A stretch of DNA of 64,000 nt, taken from assembly GCA_027489355.1 (NCBI GenBank), contig JAIXZY010000039.1:1-64000 (forward strand), read 5' to 3'. Positions within the stretch are counted from its first letter, which is position 1, and every line of letters begins with the position of its first letter. The position numbers and the translations under genes were made by a program. Below, in pieces: positions 14,278-19,278 of this stretch. The DNA comes from Paracoccaceae bacterium. GTDB lineage: Bacteria; Pseudomonadota; Alphaproteobacteria; Rhodobacterales; Rhodobacteraceae. Under the pieces are notes generated by a model. It worked only from the letters and a program-made list of their open reading frames with translations. It made no database searches and had not been told where the DNA came from.

Positions 14278-18500
<4,223 letters not shown>

Positions 18501-18503
18501 TCC

Positions 18504-18538
18504 GTTCCGGTCTGTTCGCAAATGTTCTTAAAAAGTTC
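18504..18538 (+). promoter_or_regulatory. SOS (LexA-type) box within a phased GTTC array
   Basis: GTTC occurs at 18504, 18514, 18524 and 18535, spaced 10, 10 and 11 bp. The last two form GTTCTTAAAAAGTTC (18524-18538), an exact match to the alphaproteobacterial LexA consensus GTTC-N7-GTTC. A TTTACA (-35-like, 18539-18544) abuts the box, and the small-protein start is 56 bp beyond its end. This placement would let LexA block transcription; LexA binding itself is inferred. Confidence 0.6.
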
Positions 18539-18593
18539 TTTACAGGCTGTAGTGGATATGAGAACAATTCGGCCACAGATCATGGAGGACGCG

Positions 18594-18716
18594 ATGAAAG
18601 ACGCCATGAAGACCCTGCTGACCCACACCCCGAAAGGCGCGATGGAGGACCTGGTGGGTGCCGCATCGCTGTTCGTGCTGCTGTTTGCCGTGCTCTCTGT
18701 GCCCGGCCTGCATTAA
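18594..18716 (+). CDS. Small single-span membrane peptide behind an SOS-type box
   Basis: A 40-residue reading frame starting at ATG 18594 with GGAGG ending 5 nt upstream; an in-frame ATG at 18582 would overlap that site. The N-terminal half is amphipathic and charged (MKDAMKTLLTHTPKGAMEDL). Residues 21-37 are a strongly hydrophobic helix (VGAASLFVLLFAVLSVP). The frame ends in TAA, and a strong terminator follows 81 bp later, so the gene looks like its own transcript after recG. I do not recognise a named family. Its size, single membrane span and LexA-type control recall SOS-induced membrane peptides such as SidA of Caulobacter and TisB of E. coli. No sequence homology is claimed. Confidence 0.65.
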   Translation: MKDAMKTLLTHTPKGAMEDLVGAASLFVLLFAVLSVPGLH

Positions 18717-18797
18717 GGTTTCTGCCCCGCGCTCTGTCCCCCAAGGCAGCGGTCCGCCTCGCCTGGCCCACCGCACGCCGTTTCCAGACGCGCTACT

Positions 18798-18836
18798 GCC
18801 GCCGCCATCCCATCGGATGTGCGGCGGCTTTTTCTT
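18798..18836 (+). terminator. Intrinsic terminator of the small-peptide transcript
   Basis: GCCGCCGC (18798-18805) pairs with GCGGCGGC (18821-18828). An inner CATCC/GGATG stem closes the loop, and TTTTTCTT follows directly. It reaches the last codon of the opposing scaffold gene. It bounds a transcript of roughly 270 nt starting near the LexA-type box. Confidence 0.8.
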
Positions 18837-19278
18837 AGGCGGCGGCCTGCGCGGCCTCCATCGCCTCGCAGACGGCTTCCAGTGCCAGCAGGATCGAGGC
18901 GTGCCGGTTCTTGTAGTCGCGGGCAGGGGCGAGGACTTCGTAGCCCTGGAACGGTGCGGCAGGAACCGGGCCACCCTCTTTCAGCATGGCACGCAGCGCG
19001 TCGCGGGCCGCCTGCAGCTCGGGCAGAGAGCGGCCGATCACCACCTCTCCCAGCACGGCGGCCGAGGCCTGACCCAGGGCGCAGGCCTTCACGTCCTGGG
19101 CGAACTCGGCCACCCGGCCGTCCTTGACCACCACATCAGCCGTGATCGTCGACCCGCATAGGGGAGAGCGCCGGCGTGCCGTGCCTTGCGGGGCGGGAAG
19201 CCGGCCGAGATGGGGGATGTCCGCGGCCAGCCCCAGGATGCGGGCGGAGTAGAGCTTGATGAGGTCGCTGTCGCTCAT
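18835..19278 (-). CDS. Iron-sulfur cluster assembly scaffold protein (IscU/NifU N-terminal type)
   Basis: A 147-residue protein with the NifU-N/IscU fold pattern. MSDSDLIKLYSARILGLAADIPHLGRL is followed by a first cysteine in PLCGSTITADVVVKDGRV, a second in VKACALGQASAAVL, and a helical C-terminus (ARDYKNRHASILLALEAVCEAMEAA). Only part of the usual three-cysteine pattern is placed as in IscU. It is therefore a divergent, alphaproteobacterial-type scaffold and not a confident IscU. No isc/suf partners are adjacent, though an IscA/ErpA-like gene lies at the right window edge. It is divergent from hisI. Confidence 0.8.
   Translation of the reverse strand: MSDSDLIKLYSARILGLAADIPHLGRLPAPQGTARRRSPLCGSTITADVVVKDGRVAEFAQDVKACALGQASAAVLGEVVIGRSLPELQAARDALRAMLKEGGPVPAAPFQGYEVLAPARDYKNRHASILLALEAVCEAMEAAQAAA

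Follow-up and report, generated by a model that had tools for sequence, protein, structure and literature searches.

The window considered here is a stretch of 64,000 nucleotides from a Paracoccaceae bacterium (contig JAIXZY010000039.1, positions 1 to 64,000), and its element of interest is a small gene directly after recG that encodes a 40-residue peptide. The gene is preceded by a LexA-type box, GTTC-N7-GTTC, and followed by a 3' untranslated region (UTR) that is well supported as a conserved structured RNA and ends in an intrinsic terminator. This arrangement suggests a gene of the SOS response, whose product may pause cell division in the manner of SidA of Caulobacter crescentus. A sequence-only reading of the window had already proposed an SOS-induced membrane peptide at this place. 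The four GTTC starts it listed (18504, 18514, 18524 and 18535), the exact GTTC-N7-GTTC formed by the last pair, the short open reading frame (ORF) with its good ribosome site and one membrane helix, and the strong terminator after it all lie where it had put them; the conserved RNA in the 3'UTR had escaped it. The parts of the locus are as follows.

16416-18500, plus strand: recG, the upstream neighbour, start codon inferred (Pfam RecG_dom3_C, DEAD and Helicase_C)
18504-18507, plus strand: fourth GTTC, probably due to chance
18514-18517, plus strand: third GTTC half-site, giving GTTC-N6-GTTC-N7-GTTC
18524-18538, plus strand: LexA-type box 1, GTTC-N7-GTTC, sequence GTTCTTAAAAAGTTC
18538-18543, plus strand: probable -35 (CTTTAC), touching box 1, also a hit of the promoter-like site scan
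18562-18576, minus strand: inverted second LexA-type box (box 2), GAAC-N7-CCAC, degenerate in this species
18563-18568: probable -10 (AACAAT), overlapped by the inverted second box
18584-18589, plus strand: ribosome-binding site GGAGGA
18594-18716, plus strand: gene of the 40-residue peptide including the TAA, with a basic N-terminal part and one C-terminal membrane helix
18717-18796, plus strand: conserved structured 3'UTR RNA with a long-range helix and CUGYCY-type motifs
18797-18836, plus strand: intrinsic terminator (stem 18797-18828, then TTTTTCTT)

The 40-codon ORF is a real gene, because it is under purifying selection and conserved across both the genus and the family. Over 30 species of the genus, the mean column entropy is 0.549, 0.235 and 1.072 at the first, second and third codon positions, respectively, and the median ratio of nonsynonymous to synonymous change (dN/dS) of 0.207 indicates purifying selection (416 of the 435 pairs, with a synonymous difference between 0.05 and 0.7). 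A longer reading of 64 residues from an ATG at 18522, inside the box, was dropped, the conserved protein beginning at 18594. The peptide was found in 31 of the 32 genus genomes, and the only miss is a genome that is 59% complete. In a family sample of 394 genomes, about one per genus, a profile built from the genus matched 212 genomes at E ≤ 0.1, and one built from 43 diverse members matched 357 at E ≤ 0.01, including 318 of the 347 good-quality genomes. Among 337 genomes of the class, strong matches were limited to five, all of the family and with the own genome included. No credible homolog was present in the 332 sampled class genomes outside the family: seven weak matches (E 0.004-0.05) were regarded as noise, five of them lying in open frames of at least 174 residues, one running across a stop codon and one sitting in a 58-residue frame.

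In Paracoccus amoyensis the peptide is shorter, at 31-32 residues. Of 20 family genomes without a profile match, G089 and G054 keep the promoter, followed by an ORF for a diverged hydrophobic peptide; in the remaining 18 the promoter was not matched either. A search for LexA in 20 of the 37 genomes lacking a peptide match found it in 16, compared with all of the 20 searched genomes with a strong match; joint loss of the two is hinted at weakly at most. The four genomes with neither LexA nor a peptide match are G039, G060, G064 and G198, all of the same family; G060 and G198, with a completeness of 97% or more, may have lost LexA.

Three sets of loci underlie the remaining counts. The genus set holds 30 loci from the 31 matching genomes. 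The family set of 45 loci (L063-L108 minus L091, a same-genus locus) consists of the best-scoring profile matches rather than a random draw, and includes the near-duplicates L100/L101, L066/L093 and L094/L096. The pattern set was obtained by scanning a genome contig collection with the promoter pattern, which returned at least 117 stretches; 80 of these were used, and because they were chosen by the pattern, box 1, the -35 and GAACAA are given there. The titles of the 80 are Rhodobacterales taxa or unassigned alphaproteobacterial or pseudomonadotal bins.

Peptide properties were analysed in 76 sequences, namely 75 of the 80 pattern peptides and that of the window. All 76 have a hydrophobic C-terminal stretch, with a best 19-residue Kyte-Doolittle mean of 2.21 (median) and a minimum of 1.86. 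In every one, lysine or arginine occurs at least once among the first 18 residues but never among the last 12, a distribution that points to an N-in orientation under the positive-inside rule. Across 46 sequences, D19 and G22 never vary and L26, L34 and P37 hardly do. AlphaFold, supplied with 45 of those 75 peptides and that of the window, predicted helices at 2-11 and 14-35 with a mean predicted local distance difference test (pLDDT) of 79 and a predicted template modelling score (pTM) of 0.42, confidence being lower for the first 20 residues (63-73).

Within 170 bp upstream of the gene, GTTC-N7-GTTC occurs in 30/30 genus and 43/45 family loci, against shuffle means of 0.04 and 0.14 loci and maxima of 1 and 2. 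Taken alone, the window holds one box where shuffling gives a mean of 1.81, which is not significant; the box exceeds chance because it is conserved in loci that were chosen by their peptide. Conservation of peptide and box in relatives is what the sequence-only reading had asked for, and the loss of either, which would have spoken against it, was not observed. The window has a single copy of the longer array GTTC-N6-GTTC-N7-GTTC; when the array was extended into a larger motif and up to three mismatches were allowed, the whole genome again gave one match. The third GTTC of the array is conserved in 29/30 genus, 33/45 family and 66/80 pattern loci. CTTKAC follows box 1 directly in 30/30 genus and 33/45 family loci. 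Further downstream, box 2 (GAAC-N7-[GC]AAC) is present in 29/30 genus loci, the window species being the exception, and in 40/45 family loci; in 62 of the 75 loci, the start of GAAC follows the last GTTC at exactly 27 bp. The -10, placed only approximately, would lie under the inverted box. A LexA-type operator on both sides, around the -35 and the -10, suggests tight repression. The proposal that the extra GTTC units provide added binding thus holds in part: the third GTTC and the inverted second box are conserved, but the genus alignment shows no conservation of the fourth GTTC (18504), which was given no weight.

The box is very probably that of LexA here, because lexA and recA of the same genome carry it upstream and other repair genes at or near their starts, in agreement with the earlier assignment. 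A copy of GTTC-N7-GTTC lies 33 bp before the match of the identified lexA and another 94 bp before that of recA. The recA promoter (L123, about 1365-1406) has a similar two-sided plan, GTTC-N7-GTTT followed by an inverted exact GAAC-N7-GAAC. Three further genes have a box at or close to the point where they are predicted to start: those of an IMS (ImuB-like) polymerase, a DNA polymerase III alpha-type (DnaE2-like) protein and a UvrD helicase. LexA control of the peptide gene is therefore a well-supported prediction. Two other copies deserve mention in their own right. One (L121, 1459-1473) coincides with the start of a DNA photolyase, before a divergent ORF, so that a link of light repair to the SOS response is possible in this genome. 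The other (L031, 1501-1515), with the sequence GTTCTGTTTTTGTTC, is found about 80 bp upstream of an ORF whose product looks, by eye, like a helix-turn-helix regulator.

Downstream of the gene, the UTR was compared in 30 genus, 45 family and 74 of the 80 pattern loci. The terminator begins 80 nt past the peptide stop codon; its hairpin is clear in the RNA fold and in the genus alignment, although a simple terminator scanner listed none here, and a terminator was recognised in 147 of the 149 UTRs. Within the genus, a block of about 20 nt is almost unchanged over 30 species. The UTR and terminator of the window fold better than 200 of 200 shuffles (z -5.61); leaving out the terminator gives z -2.72, with 2 of 200 shuffles folding as well, and the fold of the presumed full transcript is unremarkable (z -0.44).

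A long-range helix between the first 45 nt of the UTR and the last 32 nt before the terminator was examined by swapping arms between species in 90 of 102 UTRs retained after thinning. Arms pair better with their own partner in 77 of the 90 loci (p 6.6e-13), the medians being -22.5 kcal/mol for own and -17.0 kcal/mol for other-species partners, whereas three control region pairs gave p 0.14, 0.56 and 0.82. Across the family, the UTR sequence differs while this pairing stays. Within the genus the helix barely varies, so the genus alignment yields no covariation, and comparing single loci with shuffled arms does not decide the matter (median p 0.055 in the genus, 0.055 in the family and 0.1 in the pattern loci), as the swap over the 90 loci does. 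No preference was seen for pairing of the 3' RNA with the ribosome site of its own peptide gene (own versus swapped, p 0.37 and 0.49), and this idea was rejected.

The UTRs also share short motifs. CTGTCCC was counted 38 times in the 45 family UTRs, where 1.6 copies were expected, and CTGCCTG 44 times against an expectation of 1.4; in the genus of the window the former is again enriched (27 versus 1.6), the latter not (1 versus 0.9). At least one CUGYCY motif is present in 87 of the 90 thinned UTRs and two to four in 69. In the folds, the 290 motifs are unpaired at 72%, compared with 43% over all positions, a background that is not composition-matched. At E below 0.1 the genus RNA model R1 recovered 40 of the 45 family loci, and no E value under 1.7 was obtained for any of the 30 control loci, although much of this score seems owed to the terminator. 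Searched with the RNA model, the own genome has a single strong match (E 6e-27); two others reach E of about 0.5. An Rfam scan of both strands returned nothing above threshold, sX11 reaching 15 bits (threshold 70) and RsmY 11 (threshold 57). The UTR is hence well supported as a conserved structured RNA, which may serve stability or regulation. With a small ORF followed by conserved RNA structure and a terminator, the locus has the layout of a dual-function RNA, a shared transcript being presumed.

The peptide locus is a single fixed site beside recG. As the sequence-only reading had placed it, recG lies just upstream, which holds in 44 of the 45 distant family loci. By script, recG was within 400 bp upstream in 78 of the 80 pattern loci; one of the two exceptions has it about 545 bp upstream and the other shows none. 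The script also detected the peptide ORF in 78 of the 80, and the other two exist, one being cut by the end of the locus and one short. The downstream neighbours in the window, a divergent 147-residue ORF and hisI, were matched in 37 of 45 family loci within the stretch examined. The 147-residue ORF (18835-19278, minus strand) has no Pfam match at E 1e-5, yet is conserved in place; it resembles NifU/IscU proteins, a name that Pfam did not give at this threshold.

As the best explanation we propose an SOS division inhibitor working like Caulobacter SidA, with a probability of roughly 0.5. In the undamaged cell, LexA on GTTC-N7-GTTC beside the -35 would keep the promoter shut, probably aided by the third GTTC and by the inverted second box over the -10. 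DNA damage would lead to cleavage of LexA and to an mRNA of roughly 265 nt from this stand-alone SOS gene. Its predicted product is the 40-residue peptide, with a basic cytoplasmic N-terminal helix and an uncharged C-terminal membrane helix inserted N-in/C-out and with D19, G22 and P37 conserved. By analogy with SidA, this peptide would most likely pause division by binding a membrane protein of the divisome, of the FtsW/FtsI/FtsN group. The 3' end of the mRNA would form the conserved folded RNA, serving stability or regulation. In this model we infer LexA binding, induction, the start and end of the transcript, the topology and, above all, the divisome target.

Several points weigh against this explanation. 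Its support is computational throughout: the analysis shows that peptide and box are conserved, that the reading frame is under selection, that lexA and recA share the box, and that arm pairing is kept between species. Pfam, NCBIfam, PHROGs, PADLOC and PDB sequences gave nothing credible for the peptide. Box 2 is degenerate in the window species, and a single box match means little because GTTC-N7-GTTC occurs 108 times genome-wide compared with 69 for the reversed control. As 16 of the 20 searched peptide-less genomes keep LexA, the peptide is dispensable there or too diverged. Finally, the conserved RNA is left unexplained by a division inhibitor. It is possible, if tentative, that the 3' element is in addition a trans-acting RNA offering its unpaired CUGYCY motifs to mRNAs or a protein during the SOS response, which is compatible with division inhibition. 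The nearly unchanged 20-nt block, the own-species pairing with its null controls, the enrichment of both heptamers in the family UTRs, the largely unpaired state of the motifs and the single strong match in the genome argue for such a role; against it stand the missing enrichment of CTGCCTG in the window's genus, the lack of an Rfam relative and the fact that the structure could serve only stability or termination. The combined proposal of a LexA-controlled dual-function transcript, near-universal in Rhodobacteraceae and giving both a division-stopping 40-residue peptide and a folded 3' SOS regulatory RNA, is doubtful.

A toxic peptide of the TisB or DinQ type, acting after DNA damage by depolarising or perturbing the inner membrane and slowing metabolism, would share the SOS-type promoter and the short single-helix product, and DinQ is described as an SOS-regulated toxic peptide with a single transmembrane segment (PMC3567139). 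We consider this unlikely: a checkpoint gene fits better than a toxin-antitoxin pair because the gene is near-universal at one locus, under purifying selection and in a fixed place. No antisense RNA family was recognised by Rfam on either strand and no promoter-like site on the minus strand in 18300-19100, which does not exclude an antisense RNA. The TisB helix carries charges, unlike the last 12 residues here, which are free of lysine and arginine. Unlikely to a similar degree is an SOS-induced regulator of a membrane protein outside the divisome, such as a transporter, protease, kinase or respiratory complex. Regulation of larger membrane proteins is common among small membrane peptides, and the conserved D19, G22 and P37 suggest a specific contact, but the neighbours are housekeeping genes and point to no partner. 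It is improbable that the boxes serve a regulator other than LexA, leaving the gene outside SOS control. The third GTTC and the fixed 27-bp spacing to GAAC do exceed a plain LexA site, and didA is described as being under LexA-independent DNA-damage control (PMC4211646); lexA and recA of this genome nevertheless share the box, and recA is similarly two-sided. A chance ORF beside a chance box, as the roughly two boxes expected in the window alone and the missing protein family match might indicate, has a negligible likelihood, having already been refuted by conservation and selection.

The peptide is a candidate SOS effector carried by roughly nine in ten of the genera sampled from this large family, and neither Pfam nor NCBIfam has a model for it. 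Given the two-sided LexA-type operator and the Rfam-less RNA, the functions of both peptide and RNA can be tested in ordinary laboratory species. No description of the peptide family, the operator plan or the RNA element was found in the literature searched, with supplements and most subscription journals outside the search. In a study of Dinoroseobacter shibae, LexA sites were predicted in silico, and the word recG is absent from its main text (PMC6473078).

Among the closest known systems is SidA, described as a 29-residue inner-membrane division inhibitor under LexA control that acts on FtsW and accounts for the filamentation of a Caulobacter lexA mutant, so that in Caulobacter the chief SOS inhibitor of division can be a tiny membrane peptide (PMC4211646, PMC12700426). 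Like SidA, the peptide is, by prediction, a tiny inner-membrane peptide of an alphaproteobacterium with one helix and a GTTC-N7-GTTC LexA box; unlike SidA, here compared by description and not by sequence, it has 40 residues, an inverted second box and a structured 3'UTR. DidA of Caulobacter crescentus is described as a DNA-damage-induced, SOS-independent protein of 71 residues that interacts with FtsN (PMC4211646). It is a single-helix membrane peptide, as predicted here, and a division inhibitor, as proposed here, but the gene described here carries a LexA-type box. With DinQ and TisB, type I toxins of Escherichia coli under LexA, the peptide shares its short single-helix membrane character and its predicted LexA control; it differs in that those have small antisense RNAs, none of which was found here by Rfam or promoter scan, and in being near-universal at one locus of the family. 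YneA (Bacillus) and SosA (Staphylococcus) are described as SOS-induced membrane-bound division inhibitors, and a similar role is proposed here. They belong to another phylum and are larger proteins. In SgrS/SgrT-type dual-function RNAs, a short transcript combines a small ORF with a structured, terminator-ended RNA part; the present locus differs in the stress involved, in that the RNA part follows the ORF, and in that its RNA function in trans is putative. LexA-controlled membrane peptides are thus a known kind, and what appears to be new, judged by the literature searched, is the peptide family, the operator plan and the RNA element.
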